Positions 8,748 through 57,069 of a stretch of DNA of 64,000 nt are shown here, in pieces. The notes beneath the pieces were generated by a model. The model worked only from the letters and a program-made list of their open reading frames with translations. It did not search any database and was not told the DNA's origin. The stretch comes from Albula goreensis (taxonomy: Eukaryota > Chordata > Actinopteri > Albuliformes > Albulidae): assembly GCA_022829145.1 (NCBI GenBank), contig CM040750.1, positions 1,374,501-1,438,500 of the forward strand, given 5' to 3'. Made by a program: the position numbers and the translations under genes. Every line of letters starts with the position of its first letter. Within the stretch, counting starts at the first letter, position 1.

Positions 8748-9757
8748 CCTTGCCATTTGGAATTGAAAAGCTCATACCAGATAAATACATTTAAGAAACA
8801 TGTGAATACAGCAGCCAGAGAAGCTGTCCATTAGGTTGATTGTACAAATAATTCAACATTAGGTCAAACAAGCTGTGATATCACTGATCCACTGGCAACA
8901 TACAGGGGTAACTAAAATAATGGAAATTCCAAACATTTGTAAACATATTTTCTTTAAATTTTGAGCAATACCATAAATATCAGCTCTGCAAAACTCACTA
9001 CATGTAGTTTTTTCTTTTTTTGAGACTGGGTCACAGAGAGTGTAGTGTCAGTTGTGCGGTTATTTTTGAAGCTATTGTTTTATGGTTTTTAGGAACTAAG
9101 TGTCTGTATATCCCTGTCAGTGACCTTCAAATCTTAACCAGTGTTCCAGTGAGTTCTCACCTGTCTCAAACACTTCATTTTGCATGTTTATAAGCAAAAT
9201 AAATAAAGCTGCCACATATCTGAGCATGTTCAGAGATGATGTCATCATACACAATCAAGGAACAGGTAAATTAGACCCCTAAACATCTCCTTCAGGCAAA
9301 GTTAGCAACATTGCAGGCTTCAAGCCCAAGTGTTTCCCAAGAGCCTTTTTAGCACACATGCCACCTGCATGCTGGTTATGAAAAGCAGAGAGTGCTTGTT
9401 GACGTCAAAGCAACGTTGCCATTGACGTTGCACCAGTTTCCATCTTTGGAATCAGGATGTGAGTGTGTTCCTTCAGCCCGAGTTTATGAGCCATATCTGC
9501 TAAATATTACATTGGGATTGATTTGACTTCAGTTAAATTTCAAAAGCAGGGTCACTCTGAGGCAAAGGGAACGGAAAGTTGCTTGTGCCCAGAATGACAT
9601 TTGACATTCCTCTTTCCTGATGTAGTTTTTCCCTTCTTTGGTGTGTGTGGTTATGATTTTCAAAACCATTCACATTGACATGTTAAAAAATGTTGTGGTT
9701 TCTGTGACTGACATATCTGAAAATATCTGTAACTTTCAAAATTTGCCACATTTTTCA
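8748..9757. other. Intergenic stretch, nothing recognised
   Basis: AT-rich single-copy sequence. The only item worth naming is a perfect CRE palindrome at 9400-9407, listed separately. Confidence 0.4.
9400..9407. promoter_or_regulatory. CRE-like palindrome TGACGTCA
   Basis: A perfect 8-bp consensus site for CREB/ATF proteins, followed within 30 bp by a second, partial TTGACGTT. A single 8-mer is expected by chance about once per window, so function is only a possibility. Confidence 0.25.
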
Positions 9758-10257
9758 TGTTGGGTGATTCTCATGAAGCCCTTGTGACCATGTCTGAGTC
9801 ACACTTCACCTCCAAGTTAAAAGACAAAAACAAGATATTTTTATTTTCTATAAAGGAGGAGTATTTTCTGGACCACTAAGATTTTTTTTCCATTTTGACC
9901 TTTGAAGATATTTCAATAAATGTTATTCCTAAATTCTCATTACTCTAATGTATCTGGTTTGATGACTTGGTTTGCTTAAATTTTTCATAAAAATACTCCT
10001 TTTGATCACTGAAAAAAAATATTGGATATAAATGAAATTTTGCCAAAATTATATAGTGTTGCAATATTTCTGATATTTACTTAATTTGCTACTTACTGTG
10101 TCTTCAAATATTGCACAATCTCATTAAATAAATCTGTGATTACCCATGATGCAGCATTTGAGAAAGAAGATTCAAAATGGACACAAGGTGAGTTAATCTA
10201 TTTCAGATCAAAAGTTCTAGTAAATGCTCATGAAACCTTCTTGTGTAACACTGTTGG

Positions 10258-10268
10258 TTCTCATTACC
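10258..10268 (+). repeat. Subterminal motif TTCTCATTACC, left copy 1
   Basis: Exact 11-bp copy of the motif that recurs at 10477 and, inverted, at 13745 inside the 9762-13929 transposon. A 10-bp version (TTCTCATTAC) lies at 9934-9943. The core TTCTCA is also in the terminal inverted repeat, which suggests a transposase recognition sequence. Confidence 0.5.
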
Positions 10269-10292
10269 AATATGTGGTAATAATCTGAACTT

Positions 10293-10334
10293 TAAATTAA
10301 ATTATACATACACATATACATATAATTTAATTTA
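10293..10334. repeat. Perfect 14-bp inverted repeat with 14-nt loop
   Basis: TAAATTAAATTATA at 10293-10306 is exactly complementary to TATAATTTAATTTA at 10321-10334. The arms are pure A/T, so the hairpin would be weak. It lies between the two left subterminal motifs of the transposon. Confidence 0.6.
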
Positions 10335-10476
10335 GGATTATTTTTTAATAAAATTACTCTTATTACCAAATGGCTACTTTGGTTACATAATGGTCAAGGA
10401 AAAATTCATGTAGCATGTTAGCATTTGATCTTACAAGCTAACTTATCTATGTCACTCTCAGTACCGTTACTCATGT

Positions 10477-10487
10477 TTCTCATTACC
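10477..10487 (+). repeat. Subterminal motif TTCTCATTACC, left copy 2
   Basis: Second exact forward copy of the 11-bp motif, 219 bp inside copy 1. It is preceded by a related CTCATGTT, suggesting a cluster of degenerate sites. Confidence 0.5.
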
Positions 10488-11101
10488 ATGTACTCTAGGC
10501 CCATGGCAGTACTGAGAAGCCATGGCACGTTGATGAGAACATTATCGGTAATTTGTATTTCTTTAATCAACACATTAAATGTTTAAATCTCATGTCACTG
10601 TGTACCAGAAAACGAGAGAAATGTTTCTAATAGCCCTGATACAATCAGAAAATATATGGCAGGGCTTTTGCTCATGGTAACACAGAATGCTATTCTTAAC
10701 TATTGTGGTGTAAAACTTTTTTGATAAGACTGACAGATAAAGAGCGCAAGAAGGCAGCAGCACAAGCTTGGGTTAAAAGCACCGGAAAAAATTTATAGTG
10801 AAATTCTGCGCTTCTCGAAGAATACACGTGAAAGGAGAGAGAAGGGTAAAGTACAGATACAGCGAGGGAGTATTTGTTCATGTTAACTGTATGTGAAGTT
10901 CTTTTTTGGAATTAAAGTACATATGTACATAATTATTTGATCACATGTTGAAGCAATGCAATTAAGGTCTTATTGTTTTATTATGCCTGTGATTATACAA
11001 AAGCATAAGCCACATGAATGAGGAGACATTTTTCCCCAGAGTATTTTAAAAACATGCTCAGAAATCATGTTCAAAATACATTCAGAAACCTAATTAACGT
11101 A

Positions 11102-12832
11102 TTATCTTATTATTTTCATAGGTATCAAAGATGCAAATCTCAGAGTAAACTAAAATCTGCCAGAGACCTTAACCCAAAAGAACTGAAAAGGCAACAACAA
11201 AAAACTGGAGAGAGAATTCTGACAGGTACTACAAGACAAAAAATAAAATAAAAAAAAGGACAGGGCATTTTAAATCATACTCCACCATCCTTTACTGATG
11301 AAAGTAAATAAGATGCCGAAGAAAACAAATAAAACGAATAGAGATGAGAAGAACACCTCAAATGGGTTGGACACAAATTGTATGTACCAGAGATGTCAAG
11401 ATTGCCAGAACAAGTCCTTCACACCTGTGTCGGACCCAAACATAAAAAACAACGTTGTGTATTGGAAGGAGTGGGTTAGCAGATCTACACCTTTCACAAA
11501 AAAAAAAAGACGATTGCTCCAGTGTGGAAACAGAGATAAAAATCATAGCATTTGATAAGTGTTTTTGCCACAATTGAGAAACTTCTCAGCTTAACCCAAG
11601 AAGCTTTACCCCGATTCTGTAAACATATTTATAACATCAGACATCAATTTGAGTGGATCCAACACCTGAAGTCAGACCTGCAGGAAAATGAAGTGGTGGT
11701 CTATGTAGACTACAGTGAGAATTACAGCTGTAAATGGAACAAAGAAATCAAAGAGGTTCATTATGGAGGATCGCATAAGCAAGTGACACTGCACACTGGT
11801 GTATTGTATCTCAGTGGAGGACGACTGGAGTCTTTTGCATCCCTATCTGAGAGCCTCACACATGATGCAGCTGCAACATGGGCACATCTAGATCCAGTAC
11901 TGCAGTACAGCCATACTAAATGTCCACTTGCTAAAAGGATTCACTTCCTATCTGATGGGCCTATATCACAATATAGGAATAAAACTGCCTTCAATCTGAC
12001 ATCAACAGTGCCATTTCTAAAAGGCTTCGAATACGGAACAGAGGCCTTACATGGCGAGGGAGCAGCTCTGAAGAGTTCAGCTGATGGGATTGTGGCACAC
12101 AGTAAAGACCTCACCAATGTGAAAGCACTTATTGAAAATCTCATGCAACAGTCATCTGTGAGACTGTTTGAGGTTTCAGAAGAAAGTGTCTTGAAAAGCT
12201 CAGAGTTAGTTCTTCCATCACTAAAACCAGTGCCAGGCACAATGACAGTACATCAGGTAAGCTCCAATTTTGTTTCTCATGTTGAACCTAAGCTGTGAAG
12301 AAGTGTTGTGGTGTGTTTTGTACAAGCTTAATGTCACATTTTTCCCTCTCTTAAAAGCAGGCCTCATTCAAACAGGAGAGGTGTACTGCTTCTGTAAAAC
12401 TTCCTGAGACTGCGTCAGTCCCAGAGATTTTTCCTTTTTGGAAAGTGGGTTGTGAAACCCAAAAGGGAGTAGAGAATCTAGACACAGAAGTTGGGACGTG
12501 GGTTCTAGCACAGGAAGACGGAGGTCTTTTCCCAGGCATTGTTACAAAGGTACACAAGTCAAACCAGAAGCATAGATTCTCCAGCTATTACACAGCCAAG
12601 CAATATTGTAGCAAATGTGAACCTGCTTACATAATATGAAGTGGCTGATGAAAATGCTCTGCTTCATACACAGATTGTTGCTGAGCAGTATGAGGTAGAT
12701 ACCATGTGCAAGGCAGGGGAGAATAGGTCCTTCACCCCTACAGTTATGATCCCAGGGGACAAAGTCTGGTACTTTCTGGACGACATTAAGGAAGTAATTC
12801 CCGAGCCTCTACCAGCCACTTCGTCTGCCTGA
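11102..12832 (+). pseudogene. Degenerate transposase-like gene with VDYSENY / SDGPISQYRNK core
   Basis: Four blocks in order can be read as one broken gene. (1) A basic block after an acceptor-like ttattttcatag, containing ARDLNPKELKRQ (about 11102-11251). (2) A cysteine block CMYQRCQDC and YWKEWV (11298-11500). (3) The catalytic core in a 248-residue frame from 11552: IYNIRHQF, then D53 in YVDYSENY, D135 in LSDGPISQYRNK, and a histidine-glycine element ALHGEGA near residue 167. (4) A C-terminal part after a 104-bp intron (GTAAGC donor at 12257, AG acceptor at 12360), with GTWVLAQEDGGLFPGIV and, in another frame, DKVWYFLDDIKEVIPEP. I recognise this order from uncharacterised fish and cnidarian transposon proteins with a DFAENY, SDG-QYRN, HGKG-DG pattern. 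Here the segment between blocks 1 and 2 is too short, frames shift near the A run at about 11500 and near 12637, and the third acidic residue expected after HGKG is missing. It is not functional. Confidence 0.7.
12257..12360 (+). other. Small intron inside the transposase pseudogene
   Basis: CAG|GTAAGC at 12256/12257 and a pyrimidine-rich tract ending AG at 12360 bound a 104-bp segment. Removing it keeps the frame: residue 235 of the upstream part ends exactly at 12256, and an open frame of 92 codons resumes at 12361. This supports a spliced, once functional transposon gene. Confidence 0.55.
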
Positions 12833-13169
12833 CATTTTTCTGTTAAATCTGAAATATGGGCAAAATATTCTAAAAAATATATATATATAAACGACTGCTT
12901 ATACATATTTAGAATTGAAATCTCAGTGCAGGGATAGATTTGATATAGATTTTAGGCATGAGGGTTTGAATGGTGCTATTGGTTCAGTGTTATTGATGTG
13001 CTGTAATTGCAGGGGCCAAGGTATAATTAACTTGGTTTTGTTTTATTATTTTATTGCTCTTTTTGATTAATTAAATGTAATGAATTTTAATTAAAGGAAA
13101 AAGTTCATATTATGTAATTAAAGACCTGATATATAGTTAAAATACTGTTGATGTTGTTGGAAAAATCAT

Positions 13170-13190
13170 CCCCCCACCCCCCCCCCCCCA
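13170..13190 (-). other. C-run, potential G-quadruplex on minus strand
   Basis: Cytosine runs of 6 and about 14 separated by one A near 13171-13191. The complementary strand can supply four or more G3 tracts. It lies inside the 4.2-kb transposon, downstream of its gene. Confidence 0.4.
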
Positions 13191-13744
13191 TGTAATTTAT
13201 GTTAGTATTTTTTCTTACCAATTTGTGTAATCTCCATATTTATCAATTATAGCAATGTGTCCATTTTACAGGAAGCACCAAATTTAATGAAATTATATCA
13301 GTCTGCCAAGAGTGTTTTAAAATTTCAATGAAATAAAGATATACTTTTCGTAGTTGAGTCAAATCAAATGTTTTCACATTACCATAACATAAAATCTCAT
13401 CTTCCATAATGGGTTTCTCATCACCATAATGCAATTTAAAAAACTAAATATTTCCATATATTTACTGTTTGGATACAAGTTTGTTCATTTTGCATAATAA
13501 CTGATTATTTTATGGTCATGTATTTACTGTCTGGATTTTGTAGTTTCATTTGAAAATAGATCTGCAAAGGCCTGCTGTGCTTTGGCAATGAGAGTAATTT
13601 TATTAAAAAATAATGCTAAAATCTTTTAAAAACTACTTTATTGCACGATGTTGACCATTTCATTTAATTGTTTGTGGACATGTGAAAAAATCAGTGAGTA
13701 TGATTTTTTTAAATGCATCTTCTACCTTCTTTATAAACCATATC

Positions 13745-13755
13745 GGTAATGAGAA
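13745..13755 (-). repeat. Subterminal motif, right inverted copy
   Basis: GGTAATGAGAA is the exact reverse complement of the left subterminal motif TTCTCATTACC. Near-matches lie at 13415-13425 (TTCTCATCACC) and 13584-13597 (inverted, GGCAATGAGAGTAA). Confidence 0.5.
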
Positions 13756-13933
13756 ATATACAGGTGTAAGCCATCTTTAAACAGCCTTAAAATACATTAA
13801 AATGGGTTGTCAAGTGTAAATGTTACCACATTCAAAAATAGACAGTCTTTTTTTATTCACTGGAGTAAAAGAATCACTAAAAATAAACCATTTTTTTTCA
13901 CCTCACAAACACTGTTGTGAGAATCACCCTGTT

Positions 13934-14328
13934 GCTTTAGAAACTCAGTCTTAATTTTAAAATATTTCTTACAACACAAATATACCAGTAACTTAAGTGT
14001 GTCTGTGCATCATGGACAAGTGTGCCTCTTTCATCCCGATGTAGTACTCTTAGAAATACAATCATGTCCCCTTTTAAAAGTCACCCAACTACATCATGTA
14101 GAAATGTAGGCCTGATTAAGTTGTTCAAAAATACATAATAATACATCCATTCCAATATCTTTCATAGTATGTCCCTCATCTGGCATGTTTTTACAAAGCA
14201 CTGCATTACATCCACCAAACCTGGAAGTATATTTGCGATACAGCGCCTGCGTTATCCAAGTCTGATGCGTTTTGTGAATTACAGCCAGCCTACATTAAAA
14301 CCTGATACTTAAAAACACATTTTTTTGT
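13934..14328. other. Intergenic stretch, nothing recognised
   Basis: Single-copy AT-rich DNA between the transposon's target duplication and the start of the 58-bp array. Confidence 0.4.
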
Positions 14329-17300
14329 AGTCACTATAAGAACAGGACATAACGGTGTAGCACCACCATAAGGAGAAACCTGCCCCAGTGGAGCTGAGAA
14401 CAGGACATAACGGTGTAGCATCACTATAAGGAGAAACGTGCCCCAGGTCACATTGAGAAAAGGACATTATGGTGTAGCATCACTGAGAACAGGACATAAC
14501 AGTGTAGCATCACTATAAGGAGAAACCTTCCCCAGTGGAGCTGAGAACAGGACATAACGGTGTTGCACCACTATAAGGAGAAACCTGCCCCAGTGGAGCT
14601 GAGAACAGGACATAATGGTGTAGCATCACTATAAGGAGAAACCTTCCCCAGTGGAGCTGAGAACAGGACATAACGGTGTTGCATCACTATAAGGAGAAAC
14701 CTGCCCCAGTGGAGCTGAGAACAGGACATAACGGTGTAGCATCACTATAAGGAGAAACGTGCCCCAGGTCACACTGAGAAAAGGACATTACGGTGTAGCA
14801 TCACTGAGAACAGGACATAACGGTGTAGCATCACTATAAGGAGAAACCTGCCCCAGTGGAGCTGAGAACAGGACATAACGGTGTAGCATCACTATAAGGA
14901 GAAACCTTGCACCACGGTGTATCACTATAAGGAGAAACCTGCCCCAGTGGAGCTGAGAACAGGACATAACGGTGTAGCATCACTATAAGGAGAAACCTGC
15001 CCCAGTGGAGCTGAGAACAGGACATAACGGTGTTGCATCACTATAAGGAGAAACCTGCCCCAGTGGAGCTGAGAACAGGACATAACGGTGTAGCATCACT
15101 ATAAGGAGAAACCTGCCCCAGTGGAGCTGAGAACAGGACATAACGGTGTTGCATCACTATAAGGAGAAACCTGCCCCAGTGGAGCTGAGAACAGGACATA
15201 ACGGTGTAGCACCACTATAAGGAGAAACCTGCCCCAGTGGAGCTGAGAACAGGACATAACGGTGTTGCATCACTATAAGGAGAAACCTGCCCCAGTGGAG
15301 CTGAGAACAGGACATAACGGTGTAGCACCACTATAAGGAGAAACCTGCCCCAGTGGAGCTGAGAACAGGACATAACGGTGTAGCATCACTATAAGGAGAA
15401 ACCTGCCCCAGTGGAGCTGAGAACAGGACATAACGGTGTAGCACCACTATAAGGAGAAACCTGCCCCAGTGGAGCTGAGAACAGGACATAATGGTGTAGC
15501 ATCACTATAAGGAGAAACCTGCCCCAGTGGAGCTGAGAACAGGACATAACGGTGTAGCATCACTATAAGGAGAAACCTGCCCCAGTGGAGCTGAGAACAG
15601 GACATAATGGTGTAGCATCACTATAAGGAGAAACCTGCCCCAGTGGAGCTGAGAACAGGACATAACGGTGTAGCATCACTATAAGGAGAAACGTGCCCCA
15701 GTGGAGCTGAGAAACAGGACATAATGGTGTAGCATCACTATAAGGAGAAACCTGCCCCAGTGGAGCTGAGAACAGGACATAACGGTGTAGCATCACTATA
15801 AGGAGAAACCTGCCCCAGTGGAGCTGAGAACAGGACATAATGGTGTAGCATCACTATAAGGAGAAACCTGCTGCCCCAGTGGAGCTGAGAACAGGACATA
15901 ACGGTGTAGCATCACTATAAGGAGAAACCTGCCCCAGTGGAGCTGAGAACAGGACATAATGGTGTAGCATCACTATAAGGAGAAACCTGCCCCAGTGGAG
16001 CTGAGAACAGGACATAATGGTGTAGCATCACTATACATAGAAACCTGCCCCAGTGGAGCTGAGAACAGGACATAACGGTGTAGCATCACTATAAGGAGAA
16101 ACCTGCCCCAGTGGAGCTGAGAACAGGACATAACGGTGTAGCATCACTATAAGGAGAAACCTGCCCCAGTGGAGCTGAGAACAGGACATAATGGTGTAGC
16201 ATCACTATAAGGAGAAACCTGCCCCAGTGGAGCTGAGAACAGGACATAACGGTGTAGCATCACTATAAGGAGAAACCTGCCCCAGTGGAGCTGAGAACAG
16301 GACATAACGGTGTAGCATCACTATAAGGAGAAACCTGCCCCAGTGGAGCTGAGAACAGGACATAACGGTGTAGCATCACTATAAGGAGAAACCTGCCCCA
16401 GTGGAACTGAGAACAGGACATAACGGTGTAGCATCACTATAAGGAGAAACCTGCCCCAGTGGAGCTGAGAACAGGACATAACGGTGTAGCATCACTATAA
16501 GGAGAAACCTGCCCCAGTGGAGCTGAGAACAGGACATAACGGTGTAGCATCACTATAAGGAGAAACCTGCCCCAGTGGAGCTGAGAACAGGACATAACGG
16601 TGTAGCATCACTATAAGGAGAAACCTGCCCCAGTGGAACTGAGAACAGGACATAACGGTGTAGCATCACTATAAGGAGAAACCTGCCCCAGTGGAGCTGA
16701 GAACAGGACATAACGGTGTAGCATCACTATAAGGAGAAACCTGCCCCAGTGGAGCTGAGAACAGGACATAACGGTGTTGCATCACTATAAGGAGAAACCT
16801 GCCCCAGTGGAGCTGAGAACAGGACATAATGGTGTAGCATCACTATAAGGAGAAACCTGCCCCAGTGGAGCTGAGAACAGGACATAATGGTGTAGCATCA
16901 CTATAAGGAGAAACCTGCCCCAGTGGAGCTGAGAACAGGACATAACGGTGTAGCATCACTATAAGGAGAAACCTGCCCCAGTGGAGCTGAGAACACGACA
17001 TAACGGTGTAGCATCACTATAAGGAGAAACCTGCCCCAGTGGAACTGAGAACAGGACATAACGGTGTAGCATCCACTATAAGGAGAAACCTGCCCCAGTG
17101 GAGCTGAGAACAGGACATGAAACAGGACGGTGTAGCATCACTATAAGGAGAAACCTGCCCCAGTGGAACTGAGAACAGGACATAACGGTGTAGCATCACT
17201 AGTGGAGCTGAGAACAGGACATAAGGAGAAACCTGCCCCAGTGGAGCTGAGAACAGGACATAACGGTGTAGCATCACTATAAGGAGAAACCTGCCCCAGT

Positions 17301-17608
17301 GGAGCTGAGAACAGGACATAACGGTGTAGCATCACTATAAGGAGAAACCTGCCCCAGTGGAACTGAGAACAGGACATAACGGTGTAGCATCACTATAAGG
17401 AGAAACCTGCCCCAGTGGAGCTGAGAACAGGACATAACGGTGTAGCATCACTATAAGGAGAAACCTGCCCCAGTGGAACTGAGAACAGGACATAACGGTG
17501 TAGCACCACTATAAGGAGAAACCTGCCCCAGTGGAGCTGAGAACAGGACATAACGGCGTAGCATCACTATAAGGAGAAACCTGCCCCAGTGGAGCTGAGA
17601 ACAGGACA
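14329..17608. repeat. 58-bp minisatellite array, about 55 copies
   Basis: Highly regular 58-bp unit containing gctgagaacaggacataacg, gtgtagcatcactataagga and aacctgccccagtgga. Copies differ by a few recurrent substitutions (aacgg/aatgg, gtgtag/gtgttg, catcact/caccact, ggagctg/ggaactg). Variants alternate in places, giving a 116-bp dimer, for example gtgttg against gtgtag between about 15030 and 15320, and aatgg against aacgg between about 15490 and 15960. Disruptions occur near 14890-14930 and 17090-17220. Since 58 is not a multiple of three, frames cycle and the minus-strand repeats of MSCSQLHWGRFLLIVM are artefacts. Confidence 0.97.
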
Positions 17609-23352: not shown

Positions 23353-24697
23353 GAATGAAACCTTTCTGAAGGCGAGTCTCAGTCTGTGGTGTGAGGAATG
23401 AAACCTTTCTGAAGGCGAGTCTCAGTCTGTGGTGGAGGAATGAAACTCAGTCTCTGTGGTGGAGGAATGAAACCTTTCTGAAGGCCATTCTCAGTCTGTG
23501 GTGTGGGGAATGAAACCTTTCTGGAGGCCGTTCTCAGTCTGTGGTGTGAGGAATGAAACCTTTCTGAAGGCCATTCTCAGTCTGTGGTGTGGGGAATGAA
23601 AACTTTCTGAAGGCTGAGTCTGTGGTGTGAGGAATGAAACCTTTCTGTTCTCATTCTCAGTCTGTGGTGTGAGGAATGAAACCTTTCTGAAGGCCGTTCT
23701 CAGTCTGTGGTGTGAGGGAATGAAACCTTTCTGAAGGCTGTTCTCAGTCTGTGGTGGGGAATGAAAGCTTTCTGAAGGCCGTTCTCAGTCTGTGGTGTGA
23801 GGAATGAAACCTTTCTGAAGGCCATTCTCAGTCTGTGGTGTGGGGAATGAAACCTTTCTGAAGGCCATTCTCAGTCTGTGGTGTTAAACCTTTCTGAAGG
23901 CCATTCTCAATGAAACCTTTCTGAAGGCCGTTCTCAGTCTGTGGTGTGAGGAATGAAACCTTTCTGAAGGCCGTTCTCAGTCTGTTGTGTGGGGAATGAA
24001 ACCTTTCTGAAGGCCGGTCTCAGTCTGTGGTGGAGGAATGAAACCTTTCTGAAGGCCATTCTCAGTCTGTTGTGTGAAAGCTGAGGAATGGAGGAACCTT
24101 TCCTGAAGGCCATTCTCAGTCTGTGGTGGAATGAAACCTTCCTGAAATTCTCAGTCTGTCTTTCTGAAGGCGGGTGTCAGTCTGTGGTGTGAGGAATGAA
24201 ACCTTTCTGAAGGCCATTCTCAGTCTGTGGTGTGGGGAATGAAACCTTTCTGAAGGCCATTCTCAGTCTGTGGTGTGGGGAATGAAACCTTTCTGAAGGC
24301 GGGTCTCAGTCTGTGGTGGGGAATGAAACCTTTCTGAAGGCCATTCTCAGTCTGTGGTGTGGGGAATGAAACCTTTCTGAAGGCAGGTCTCAGTCTGTGG
24401 TGTGGGGAATGAAACCTTTCTGAAGGCGGGTGTCAGTCTGTGGTGTGGGGAATGAAACCTTTCTGAAGGCCGTTCTCAGTCTGTGGTGTGAGGAATGAAA
24501 CCTTCCTGAAGGCGGGTCTCAGTCTGTGGTGTGGGGAATGAAACCTTTCTGAAGGCCGTTCTCAGTCTGTGGTGGAGGAATGAAACCTTTCTGAAGGCCG
24601 TTCTCAGTCTGTGGTGTGAGGAATGAAACCTTTCTGAAGGTGGGTCTCAGTCTGTGGTGTGGGGAATGAAACCTTTCTGAAGGCGGGTGTCAGTCTG
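23353..24697. repeat. 43-bp minisatellite array
   Basis: About 31 copies of a 43-bp unit containing gaatgaaacctttctgaagg and ttctcagtctgtggtgtg. Variants alternate between ccattctc, ccgttctc and cgggtctc in the middle of the unit. Deleted copies occur around 23430, 23620, 23880 and 24070-24170. The last unit ends in unrelated sequence after cagtctg. Confidence 0.95.
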
Positions 24698-33109: not shown

Positions 33110-33253
33110 GTATGGGCTGCTGAATGGCGTGTCCTGCTAAAGTTTCTCAAAGTAGTTCCACTCTCCGTCTATAATGCTGACTGAGCTTGTGCCAGGAGTG
33201 GCCAGGGTTTCATTTTGTGGTGTTCCCTTCCCCGTAAAATGTGGAGCTCTCCC

Positions 33254-34458
33254 AAAGATGGGGTGATCTCCTAAGCCAAGGATGGAGTGATCTCCTAAGG
33301 ATGGAGTGACCTCCTTAGGATGGAGTGATCTCCTAAGCCAAGGATGGAGTGATCTCCCAAGAATGGAGTGATCTCCTAAGCCAAGGATGGAGTGACCTCC
33401 GAAGCCAAGGATGGAGTGATCTTGTAAGCCAAGGATAGAGTGACCTCCTTAGGATGGAGTGATCTCCTAAGCCAAGGACAGAGTGATCCCCTTAAGGATG
33501 GAGTGATCTCCTAAGAATGATCTCCTAAGCCAAGGATGGAGTGACCTCCTTAGGATGGAGTGATCTCCTAAGCCAAGGATGGAGTGACCTCCGAAGCCAA
33601 GGATGGAGTGATCTTGTAAGCCAAGGATAGAGTGACCTCCTTAGGATGGAGTGATCTCCTAAGCCAAGGATGGAGTGACCTCCTTAGGATGGAGTGATCT
33701 CCTAAGAATGATCTCCTAAGCCAAGGATAGAGTGATCCCCTTAAGGATGGAGTGATCTCCTAAGAATGATCTCCTAAGCCAAGGATAGAGTGATCTCCTA
33801 AGGATGGAATGACCTCCTAAGAATGATCTCCTAAGCCAAGGATAGAGTGATCTCCTAAGGATGGAGTGATCTCCTAAGCCAAGGAAAGAGTGACCTCCTT
33901 AGGATGGAGTGATCTCCTAAGAATGGAGTGATCTCCTAATCCAAGGATAGAGTGATCTCCTAAGAATGGAGTGATCTCCTAAGGCAAGGATAGAGTGATC
34001 TCCTAAGAATGGAGTGATCTCCTAAGGCAAGGATAGAGTAATCTCCTATGAATGGAGTGATCTCCTAAGCCAAGGATGGGGTGATCTCCTAAGAATGGAG
34101 TGATCTCCTAAGCCAAGGATAGAGTGATCTCCTAAGAATGGAGTGATCTCCTAACCCAAGGATAGAGTGATCTCCTAAGAATGGAGTGATCTCCGAAGCC
34201 AAGGACAGAGTGATATCCTAAGAATGGAGTGATCTCCTAAACCAAGAATGGGGTGATCTCCTAAGGATAGAGTGACCTCCTTAAGATGGAGTGATCTCCT
34301 AAGAATGGAGTGATCTCCTAAACCAAGGATAGAGTGATCTCCTAAGAATGGAGTGATCTCCTAAGCCAAGGATGGGGTGATCTCCTTAGGATGTAGTGAT
34401 CTCCTAAGCCAAGGATGGGGTGATCTCCTAAGGATGGAGTGATCTCCTAAGGATGTGA
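33254..34458. repeat. Compound minisatellite of 19- and 24-bp half-units
   Basis: Two half-units, aatggagtgatctcctaag (19 bp) and a 24-bp version with ccaaggatagagtgatctcc, alternate to give a common 43-bp period, best seen at about 33940-34250. The left part is more irregular, with cttaggatggagtgacctcc variants and shortened copies such as aatgatctcctaag. About 28 periods in total. Confidence 0.93.
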
Positions 34459-46316: not shown

Positions 46317-48688
46317 TACCACACCTGGTTTTCTATATATACACTGCAACACCTGGTTTTCAGTGTGTATACTACCACACCTGGTTTTCAGTGTGTATAC
46401 TGCCACACCTGGTTTTCTATATATACACTGCAACACCTGGTTTTCAGTGTGTATACTACCACACCTGGTTTTCTGTACATACACTACCACACCTGGTTTT
46501 CAGTGTGTATACTACCACACCTGGTTTTCTGTACATACACTACCACACCTGGTTTTCAGTGTGTATACTACCACACCTAGTTTTCTATATATACACTACC
46601 ACACCTGGTTTTCCTACCACACCTGGTTTTCTGTACAAGCACTACCACACCTGGTTTTCAGTGTGTATACTACCACACCTGGTTTTCTGTACAAGCACGA
46701 CCACACCTGGTTTTCAGTGTGTATACTACCACACCTAGTTTTCTATATATACACTACCACACCTGGTTTTCTGTACATACACTACCACACCTGGTTTTCA
46801 GTGTGTATACTACCACACCTGGTTTTCTGTACATACACTACCACACCTGGTTTTCAGTGTGTATACTACCACACCTGGTTTTCTGTACAAGCACACCACA
46901 CCTGGTTTTCAGTGTGTATACTACCACACCTAGTTTTCTATACTACCACTACACCTGGTTTTCAGTGTATATACCACACCTACCACACCTGGTTTTGTGT
47001 ACATACACTTGGTTTTCTGTACATACACTACCACACCTGGTTTTCAGTGTGTACTACCACACCTGGTTTTCTGTACATACTACCACACCTGGTTTTCAGT
47101 GTGTATACTACCACACCTGGTTTTCTGTACATACACTACCACACCTGGTTTTCACACCTGGTTTTCTGTACAAGCACTACCACACCTGGTTTTCAGTGTG
47201 TATACTGCCACACCTGGTTTTCTGTACATACACTACCACACCTGGTTTTCAGTGTGTATACTACCACACCTGGTTTTCTGTACATACACTACCACACCTG
47301 GTTTTCAGTGTGTATACTACCACACCTGGTTTTCTGTACATACACTACCACACCTGGTTTTCAGTGTGTATACTACCACACCTGGTTTTCTGTACAAGCA
47401 CGACCACACCTGGTTTTCAGTGTGTATACTACCACACCTGGTTTTCTGTACAAGCACGACCACACCTGGTTTTCAGTGTGTATACTACCACACCTAGTTT
47501 TCTATATATACACTACCACACCTGGTTTTCTGTACATACACTACCACACCTGGTTTTCTGTACAAGCACGACCACACCTGGTTTTCAGTGTGTATACTAC
47601 CACACCTGGTTTTCTATATATACACTGCAACACCTGGTTTTCTGTACATACACTACCACACCTGGTTTTCTGTACATACACTACCACACCTGGTTTCCAG
47701 TGTGTATACTGCCACACCTGGTTTTCAGTGTGTATACTACCACACCTGGTTTCCAGTGTGTATACTGCCACACCTGGTTTTCAGTGTGTATACTACCACA
47801 CCTGGTTTTCTGTACATACACTACCACACCTGGTTTCCAGTGTGTATACTACCACACCTGGTTTTCTGTACATACACTACTACACCTGGTTTCCAGTGTG
47901 TATACTGCCACACCTGGTTTCCAGTGTGCATACTGCCACACCTGGTTTTCAGTGTGTATACTACCATACCTGGTTTTCTGTACATACACTACCACACCTG
48001 GTTTCCAGTGTGTATACTACCACACCTGGTTTTCTGTACATACACTACCACACCTGGTTTTCAGTGTGTATACTGCCACACCTGGTTTTCTGTACAAACA
48101 CTACCACACCTGGTTTCCAGTGTGTATACTGCCACACCTGGTTTTCTGTACATACACTACCACACCTGGTTTTCAGTGTGTATACTACCACACCTGGTTT
48201 TCTGTACAAACACTACCACACCTGGTTTTCAGTGTGTATACTGCCACACCTGGTTTTCTGTACATACACTACCACACCTGGTTTCCAGTGTGTATACTGC
48301 CACACCTGGTTTTCTATACGTACACTACCACACCTGGTTTTCTGTACATACACTACCACACCTGGTTTCCAGTGTGTACACTGCCACACCTGGTTTTCTG
48401 TACATACACTACCACACCTGGTTTTCTGTGTGTATACTGCCACACCTGGTTTTCAGTGTGTATACTGCCACACCTGGTTTTCTGTACAAACACTACCACA
48501 CCTGGTTTTCTGTACAAACACTACCACACCTGGTTTTCAGTGTGTATACTGCCACACCTGGTTTTCTATACGTACCACACCTGGTTTTCTGTACATACAC
48601 TACCACACCTGGTTTTCTGTACAAACACGACCACACCTGGTTTTCAGTGTGTATACTACCACACCTGGTTTTCTATACGTACACTACA
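46317..48688. repeat. 28-bp minisatellite array with 56-bp higher-order unit, about 85 copies
   Basis: Each 28-bp monomer starts taccacacctggtttt and ends with one of a few 12-base variants: ctgtacatacac, cagtgtgtatac, ctatatatacac or ctgtacaagcac. The first two alternate over most of the array, making a 56-bp dimer. None of the common variants contains a stop in any plus-strand frame, so frames of 805, 658 and 376 codons stay open in parallel, with His-Thr-Trp-Phe-Ser and Pro-His-Leu-Val-Phe repeats. The equal openness of all three frames shows that this is a property of the repeat and not selection for a protein. Confidence 0.97.
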
Positions 48689-54700: not shown

Positions 54701-56102
54701 CAATGCGCTCTCATACATGTCAATGTGTGCGCAAACTTAAATTGTAACTATATTCGTAAATATAACGACCATTCTCTGGTTTGCAGATGTTTCTCCAGAC
54801 TCGGAAAAGGAGGGGTGCACTCTTAGCAAGTGACCAAACTATTGTAAAGACAACATAACTAAATTTTTACAGTTAATAAATCATATGAACTATGAATGCC
54901 ACAAAATACATTCCCAGTTAGTTTAACTTGGATAGGCAATATGGCATTTTTAATGCCTATCAAGAGATAGCTGGATAGCTTTGGACGTTAGTTACCTACC
55001 AAGCTTCTTGTTCAAATAAGCCTTCACAAGGTATCAGATACACACTGCTAAGACTGAAACCTCTATGATAAATAAAAAAAAAGCAGAGAGGAAGAAACAC
55101 ACACATTTTGAATGTTTGTGCCTTTGGGTGAATGATGCTTGTGGTCACAGGTGAATGAACTCCTCCTCTCTGGCATTGTAGAGGGGTGGCTTACTCCCTC
55201 TGGCCCTGCTTTTCAGGCTCATTAACCATCCTGTTATTACTGCATGAACAGTGTCATTTCATATCATTTTCTCTCACAGCCACACATTTCTAACTTCAGA
55301 ACCCATTGACAGTATGAAGATTTTGCCATTTAATACATTTTTGTACCAATTCCTCACATTTACATTTGTTCACCCACAAAGTCACAGTCCCTTTGTTTGG
55401 CTGTGTGTACATTTTAATTGTCATATTATAAAACATAACTCTATTGCTGTGTTTGTGAAATGTGATATTCTATACAAATACTAAGTAGAACACCAAACAC
55501 TGTGAATCAACTGTGCAAATAGATGGAACATTCAGTAATACCTCTTTGCTGCTGACAGTTCCAAGACGAACAACTGACCAATTTTGAGTCTTAACAAAAA
55601 GTGAAATAATGTCAATGTTGTGTGGCACAGGGAGAGGTGGAGGGAGGGGCAAGCTCCTCAGCTCCTTCTCTTGAGCTGCTGTCAGTTCCTGTGTCTCCCT
55701 TAGTCTCAGCCTGGAGAGACTGCAGGAGCTTGAACATCAGTGGCCTCACTAACAGGCAGGCTCAACTGAGGATGAATGCTCAATCTAAACGCTTGCACTT
55801 TCCTTCAATAATGCCACATATCTAAAGCACAGACCTTCAGGCTGGAAGGAGGACTTTTGAGCTTTTGTTCATGGTTTTCTATGGCTCTGCTGGTTTGTCA
55901 TTTGTGACTTGTACCTGCTGGTGTTTTTTCTATGGTTTTGTTTTGCTTTACTTTCCCAAAAAGGGCAAAATAAAAAGGCTTCAAGGCTGACATTTTTGTG
56001 TTTTCCTTCCACTCAACACCTGGTTCTGTGGCTGCACCTGCCACTGTGCCACAGTTGATAGTCAGACCTCAGACTGTCTTCCAGCTTCGGATTCAGAGTC
56101 AT
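54701..56102. other. Intergenic stretch, nothing recognised
   Basis: AT-rich single-copy DNA; no gene, RNA or repeat recognised. Confidence 0.4.
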
Positions 56103-57069
56103 CATGAGCCAGGTCATAGAGGTGGATGAGGACAGAATGAGGTCCACTCACCATGAGCCAGGTCATAGAGGTGGATGGGGACAGAATGAGGTCCACTCAC
56201 CATGAGCCAGATCATAGAGGTGGATGGGGACAGAATGAGGTCCACTCACCATGAGCCAGGTCATAGAGGTGGATGGGGACAGAATGAGGTCCACTCACCA
56301 TGAGCCAGGTCATAGAGGTGGATGGGGACAGAATGAGGTCCACTCACCATGAGCCAGGTCATAGAGGTGGATGGGGACAGAATGAGGTCCACTCACCATG
56401 AGCCAGGTCATAGAGGTGGATGGGGACAGAACGAGGTCCACTCACCATGAGCCAGGTCATAGAGGTGGATGGGGACAGAATGAGGTCCACTCACCATGAG
56501 CCAGGTCATGAGCCAGGTGGATGGGGACAGAATGAGATCCACTCACCATGAGCCAGGTCATAGAGGTGGATGGGGACAGAACGAGGTCCATTCACCATGA
56601 GCCAGGTCATAGAGGTGGATGGGGACAGAATGAGGTCCACTCACCATGAGCCAGGTCATAGAGGTGGATGGGGACAGAATGAGGTCCACTCACCATGAGC
56701 CAGGTCATAGAGGTGGATGGGGACAGAATGAGGTCCACTCACCATGAGCCAGGTCATAGAGGTGGATGGGGACAGAACGAGGTCCATTCACCATGAGCCA
56801 GGTCATAGAGGTGGATGGGGACAGAATGAGGTCCACTCACCATGAGCCAGGTCATAGAGGTGGATGGGGACAGAATGAGGTCCACTCACCATGAGCCAGG
56901 TCATAGAGGTGGATGGGGACAGAATGAGGTCCACTCACCATGAGCCAGATCATAGAGGTGGATGGGGACAGAATGAGGTCCACTCACCATGAGCCAGATC
57001 ATAGAGGTGGATGGGGACAGAACGAGGTCCATTCACCATGAGCCAGGTCATAGAGGTGGATGGGGACAG
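56103..57069. repeat. 49-bp minisatellite array, about 20 copies
   Basis: Very homogeneous 49-bp unit containing catgagccaggtcatagagg and gatggggacagaatgaggtc. Copies differ by single bases (aacgag, gccagatc, ccattcac), and one short copy lies near 56500. On the minus strand every unit carries GGCTCATGGTGAGTGGACC, which resembles a 5' splice donor (ATG|GTGAGT). The array passes without a break into single-copy DNA that stays open on the minus strand. Confidence 0.96.

Follow-up and report, generated by a model that had tools for sequence, protein, structure and literature searches.

A stretch of 64,000 nucleotides from Albula goreensis (C10:1374501-1438500, referred to below as the window) contains a segment of 4,168 bp, at positions 9762-13929, with short inverted repeats at its ends and a transposase-like gene between them. 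The question raised by this locus is whether the segment is a DNA transposon and, if so, to which kind of transposase its gene belongs. The analysis suggests that it is a low-copy DNA transposon of the cut-and-paste type, present here as an old, decayed and inactive copy, a reading to which we assign a probability of roughly 85%. The ends and the target-site duplication can be read directly from the sequence, and a preliminary description of the window had given the coordinates, the 12-bp ends and the TGTT at both borders exactly to the base. The outer features are the following.

9758..9761, unstranded: left target-site duplication TGTT, read directly; a single copy is the best fit in all seven fetched empty sites (see below)
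9762..13929, plus strand: the whole DNA transposon, ends and duplication read directly, boundaries backed by other copies and by empty sites
9762..9773, plus strand: left terminal inverted repeat GGGTGATTCTCA, 12 bp, perfect; a derivative on C16 begins at the same base
13918..13929, minus strand: right terminal inverted repeat TGAGAATCACCC, 12 bp, perfect; another copy on C10 stops at the same base
13930..13933, unstranded: right target-site duplication TGTT, read directly, with the same empty-site scoring

When the window was scanned for perfect 12-bp inverted repeats lying 0.3-6 kb apart and bordered on the outside by identical 4-mers, three pairs were returned: the ends of this element, a second pair within it that is AT-rich, and a pair consisting of poly-T. 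The same scan on 30 Markov resamples of the window gave a mean of 0.23 pairs. The G+C content of the element is 35.0%, compared to 41.7% for the window.

The insertion itself could be demonstrated from sites at which the element is absent. Both flanks were joined after removal of the element and one TGTT, giving the uninterrupted target-site sequence CATGTTGC, and the joined flanks were searched in the 932-Mb genome. At least 38 non-self matches were found (40 of 42 candidates scored), 14 of which span the junction, and these matches, at 68-80% identity, represent an older dispersed repeat whose copies have diverged. From the 14 junction-spanning matches, seven were fetched and scored against the flanks with zero, one or two copies of TGTT. 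One copy scored highest in each of the seven, with summed scores of 404, 502 and 424 for zero, one and two copies, respectively. In the alignment, TGTT is found exactly at the junction in four sites and with a one-base difference in two, while the remaining site (L060) has a small gap. Since all seven fit a single TGTT best, the element is an insertion into the older repeat that produced a 4-bp target-site duplication. The dispersed repeat split by the transposon is represented in the window by positions 9600-9761 and 13934-14000.

Copies elsewhere in the genome were sought with end probes, which give lower bounds, and with 12-mers. A 189-bp left-end probe identified at least one other place, on C16, where an 805-bp element has the same left end, the right end TGAGAATCATCC and the flanks AAAT and AAAC; this is an internal-deletion derivative that has kept both ends. 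A 330-bp right-end probe likewise identified at least one other place, on C10, with a copy 74-87% identical to the element that stops at its last base and is followed by a flank different from that in the window. Both alignments thus end exactly at the element boundary, next to different flanks. The search for copies sharing the ends, as proposed in the preliminary description, therefore yielded copies, albeit few, with boundaries that coincide with 9762 and 13929; together with the empty sites they bear out the DNA transposon with a 4-bp duplication described there. A third relative, on C12, matches window positions 11636-12523 at 79%. The Kimura two-parameter (K2P) distance between the window and C10 copies is 0.057 over 11375-12981, which covers the main exons, and 0.12-0.15 in three other blocks; in the aligned blocks it is 0.10-0.12 for C16 and 0.16 for C12. 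The lower distance across the gene, seen in few blocks, suggests that the transposase may have been under selection while the lineages were active.

The exact 12-mer of the ends occurs at 106 places in the genome, compared to 36 for a reversed control. When the first 20 of these 106 places were taken 7.9 kb inward, a partner end (at most two mismatches) was present in three, and a partner with a matching 4-bp duplication in none of the 20, so most exact occurrences of the 12-mer are probably due to chance. A longer end pattern with one mismatch allowed was found at 38 places (26 for the control), and exactly at two, i.e. in the window and in the C16 derivative. At the loci of more distant relatives, a search for 11-bp inverted pairs flanked by an exact duplication of 4 bp found none; these loci are short (3.1-3.7 kb) and little informative in this respect. 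The right-end variant GGATGATTCTCACGAA, known from the C16 derivative, also occurs singly at C13:8935361, where it might mark another derivative.

The gene between the ends was compared with its relatives in an alignment of 19 fragmentary pieces (rows) from the genome, which share the motifs DxSENY, SDGPxxQYxNK and HGKGxPDG; in a relative on C13 the spacing of the conserved aspartates is D-82-D-41-D. The parts that can be distinguished in the window copy are listed here.

11274..11555, plus strand: upstream coding remnant with a CxxxxCxxC run (CMYQRCQDC), an open reading frame shorter than in the C10 copy, which has extra DNA here
11549..12256, plus strand: transposase catalytic-core exon (open frame 11549-12298), with a predicted exon end at CAG/GTAAGC; the C10 and C12 copies share the donor
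11708..11710, plus strand: codon of the first conserved Asp (VDYSENY); D in 8 of the 10 rows covering the position
11954..11956, plus strand: codon of the second conserved Asp (SDGPISQYRNK); D in 9 of the 12 rows with a residue there
12036..12060, plus strand: site of two deletions, of 12 and 18 nt and in frame, by which the third Asp and some of a predicted core strand were lost, from DNA alignment with the C10 and C12 copies
12257..12360, plus strand: predicted intron, GT...CAG, read from the sequence; the C10 and C12 copies match it at the DNA level
12454..12829, plus strand: C-terminal part, possibly SH3/Tudor-like, now in two frames, from the alignment and a model of the relative L035

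The motifs VDYSENY (D at 11708) and SDGPISQYRNK (D at 11954) are present at the distance of 82 residues given in the preliminary description. The HGxG element named there is recognizable downstream as HGEG, but the stretch is damaged and the third conserved aspartate has been deleted. The proposed D/D/D-type core is supported by residue conservation among the relatives and by an RNase H-like fold predicted with middling confidence, but the window copy itself has lost one of the three residues. At the third position an aspartate is found in 8/8 rows with a residue there, opposite a gap in the window copy; at 12036-12060, 12 and 18 bases absent from the window are found in the C10 and C12 copies, which read TWNFTEA(S/P)HG(K/R)G(A/T)PD. 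As the loss amounts to 30 bases, the deletions are in frame. DNA upstream of the core that is seen in the C10 copy is also missing from the window copy. With the third aspartate lost, the upstream DNA missing and the C-terminus split between frames, this copy cannot encode a working transposase and, judged from its sequence, is dead.

Decay is common among the relatives as well. The open frame 11549-12298 has at least 26 genome matches, 15 of these 26 containing internal stop codons, and the C13 relative has at least 31 matches as query; combined, the two lists give at least 27 places, including the window, many of them broken. The upstream part with the CxxxxCxxC run is a putative DNA-binding part. 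At one of the loci (L038, C7:34518499-34521756) a fragment of this transposase family adjoins a long open frame on the reverse strand that resembles a hAT/ZBED-type transposase.

In RNase H-like DDE/D transposases the acidic residues are located on strand 1, on strand 4 and on the next helix. A structural model of the core of L035 has an RNase H-like order of strands and helices, at middling confidence, and its fold matches include RNase H, retroviral integrase and Argonaute PIWI domains. The core of the transposase is thus predicted to be RNase H-like with a D-D-D triad. The C-terminal part of L035 was modelled as five strands and a helix, with a mean predicted local distance difference test (pLDDT) score of 63.3 and weak fold matches.

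Sequence databases gave little for this family. None of the 19 aligned pieces has a Pfam match better than E 0.08; the lowest Pfam E-value, 0.01, was for DUF7952 on an upstream frame (16.4 of 33.4 bits), and all scores are under the cut-offs. To this extent the family is indeed unusual and poorly annotated, as the preliminary description had it; the core motifs were associated there with poorly annotated fish and cnidarian proteins. No credible match to the core was found among PDB sequences (one match at E 1.2, taken as chance) or in NCBIfam (best 0.078), and the best PHROGs match (0.014, to a repressor) was also taken as chance. No relatives of the transposase were found in the phage, plasmid, viral-contig and prokaryote-genome sets searched, the viral and prokaryote scans being based on short peptide patterns. 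Motif strings returned no relevant paper and one unrelated match in the collection of papers searched.

Both ends of the element contain a further set of repeats, as follows.

9935..10487, plus strand: five TCTCATTACC sites (at most one mismatch), at 9935, 10259, 10358, 10456 and 10478
10331..10370, plus strand: left arm (40 nt) of an inner subterminal inverted repeat; the two arms are complementary at 93%
13374..13754, both strands: four TCTCATTACC sites, at 13374 and 13416 (plus) and at 13584 and 13745 (minus)
13581..13620, minus strand: inner subterminal inverted repeat, right arm

The word TCTCATTACC is the commonest non-simple 10-mer in the element (9 places; in 60 Markov resamples the top word reached 4-7). 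Five of these sites are within 0.73 kb of the left end and the other four within 0.56 kb of the right end; the 40-nt arms contain two of them. Four sites are present in the C16 derivative, and three places were found in the other 59.8 kb of the window. Since the terminal repeat and TCTCATTACC with its preceding T (present at several sites) have TTCTCA in common, these sites may be transposase-binding sites.

In the mechanism proposed here, the working transposase would be a spliced product that combines an RNase H-like core carrying three aspartates with a Cys-containing N-terminal part and perhaps with a C-terminus of SH3-like type. It would attach to the element at the 12-bp inverted repeats of the ends and probably also at the TCTCATTACC sites. 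It would then excise the element and insert it into a target whose strands are cut 4 bp from each other, giving the 4-bp duplications. The splicing, the end binding and the chemistry of excision are inferred here.

Several observations weigh against the reading as an old cut-and-paste element with an RNase H-like transposase. The two flanks of the C16 derivative differ by one base, and a perfect duplication is found only at the window insertion. The left end of the C10 copy was not found, the first 1.3 kb of the element being unmatched there. No copy was seen intact, and activity is putative. The count of TCTCATTACC in the whole window is 12, compared to a mean of 4.5 in 100 shuffles, and 12 was reached in one of these 100; the putative binding role was guessed from enrichment. 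The core model is that of L035 read through one stop codon, supported by only the 19 fragmentary rows and with a mean pLDDT of 66.6, and the placing of the triad in RNase H order comes from this middling model. The sole Foldseek match at E < 0.001 is a ribosomal protein; ribosome entries ranked first, which we read as a probable case of shared topology. The best VIA Z is 10.1, where 7-8 is typical of models without a clear match; no cut-and-paste transposase appears in the VIA list of 50 rows, which according to the note of the tool is no evidence against one.

One could suppose that the ends and TGTT came together by chance around a host gene or a captured fragment, given how common the 12-mer is (106 places vs 36). 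The empty sites, the boundary-sharing copies and the 27 or more places with gene relatives, many of them broken, speak against this, and it was rejected, as next to impossible, on the single-TGTT empty sites, the shared boundaries and the resampling of inverted repeats (mean 0.23). The more substantial issue is classification. For a Ginger, Academ, Chapaev or Kolobok type, all with 4-bp or similar duplications, duplication length is the only argument, and such an assignment is improbable. Chapaev ends begin with CACT, those of the element with GGGT; Academ carries an XPG nuclease, for which the Pfam scans gave no match. Retroviral integrases have a D,D(35)E spacing, unlike the D-82-D-41-D of the element's relatives, and no credible PDB sequence match links them to the core (intasomes 6rwo, 7pel and 3oyi; HIV-1 core 1bl3). 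The comparison with other families draws on three papers (PMC10741241, PMC9587614 and PMC3627910). Ginger elements have inverted repeats of 40-270 bp and a Gypsy-like integrase (PMC10741241), whereas the repeats here are 12 bp and no integrase family is among the Pfam matches. Kolobok typically has a TTAA duplication and carries a C/DxxH motif (PMC9587614), whereas TGTT is found here; since duplications of 3-4 or 4-5 bp are described for solo units of the KolobokP lineage (PMC9587614), TTAA does not exclude every Kolobok, and the missing motif is the stronger argument. This motif, located between the second D and the last acidic residue, is described for hAT, P, MuDR, Kolobok and Dada, whose DDD/E transposases have the RNase H fold (PMC9587614) that is predicted for the core here; the motif is absent from all six rows spanning both positions, and from these six anywhere after the second D within the aligned (partial) row. 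The TTAA duplication of piggyBac (PMC9587614) and the 2-bp TA duplication of Tc1/mariner (PMC10741241) also differ from the 4-bp TGTT.

Judged on described features alone, Sola is the best-fitting candidate among the known superfamilies. It combines a DDD transposase, 4-bp duplications, a length of mostly 2-9 kb and inverted repeats of 11-1124 bp (PMC10741241), and for one amoeba, Sola2 elements are described with inverted repeats of 12-13 bp and AT-rich 4-bp duplications at AWWT targets (PMC3627910). The element agrees in its 4-bp duplication (TGTT; 7/7 empty sites), its 12-bp ends and its 4,168 bp, the D-D-D predicted from its relatives would agree as well, and the AAAT flank of the C16 derivative is AT-rich; TGTT does not fit the AWWT of the amoeba elements. 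On balance we lean slightly towards membership of Sola (Sola1 or Sola2 type), which would mean that the element is already classified in kind, but the likeness comes from described features that are non-diagnostic. A DDE/D group outside the named superfamilies, under-described in animals, is a less probable though serious contender. It would account for the absence of C/DxxH from 6/6 testable rows, of PDB sequence matches, of Pfam matches better than E 0.08 in 19 pieces, of relatives in the phage, plasmid, viral and prokaryote sets, and of relevant papers for the motif strings. Against this, the prokaryote and viral scans used short peptide patterns, and absence from Pfam is weak evidence because Pfam need not model each Repbase superfamily. 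Only tentatively can one go further and suggest a separate eukaryotic superfamily unrelated to Sola in sequence and without a Pfam model, with D-82-D-41-D, DxSENY...SDGPxxQYxNK...HGKGxPDG, perhaps an SH3-like tail, and 4-bp duplications. Most likely, the element is an ordinary DNA transposon, mechanically of a familiar type, whose transposase is poorly catalogued.

The window as a whole is rich in minisatellites. A 58-bp tandem array of about 47 copies, with further blocks, occupies positions 14339-17608 and starts some 400 bp beyond the right end of the transposon. A 28/56-bp minisatellite at 46317-48674 has several open frames (818 and 704 residues from stop to stop); these open frames are repeat, with no evidence of a gene. 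More tandem arrays are located at 23453-24697, 33248-34455, 56099-57069 and 236-649, with periods that include 43, 43, 49 and 54 bp.

For a transposase group that matches no Pfam model here, the locus thus supplies a catalytic signature, precisely located ends and a 4-bp duplication that has been demonstrated. Annotators can now recognize the group and its short derivatives, which would otherwise pass as uncharacterized proteins. Should the group turn out not to be Sola, the twenty DDD/E superfamilies that PMC9587614 lists from Repbase would be joined by one more.

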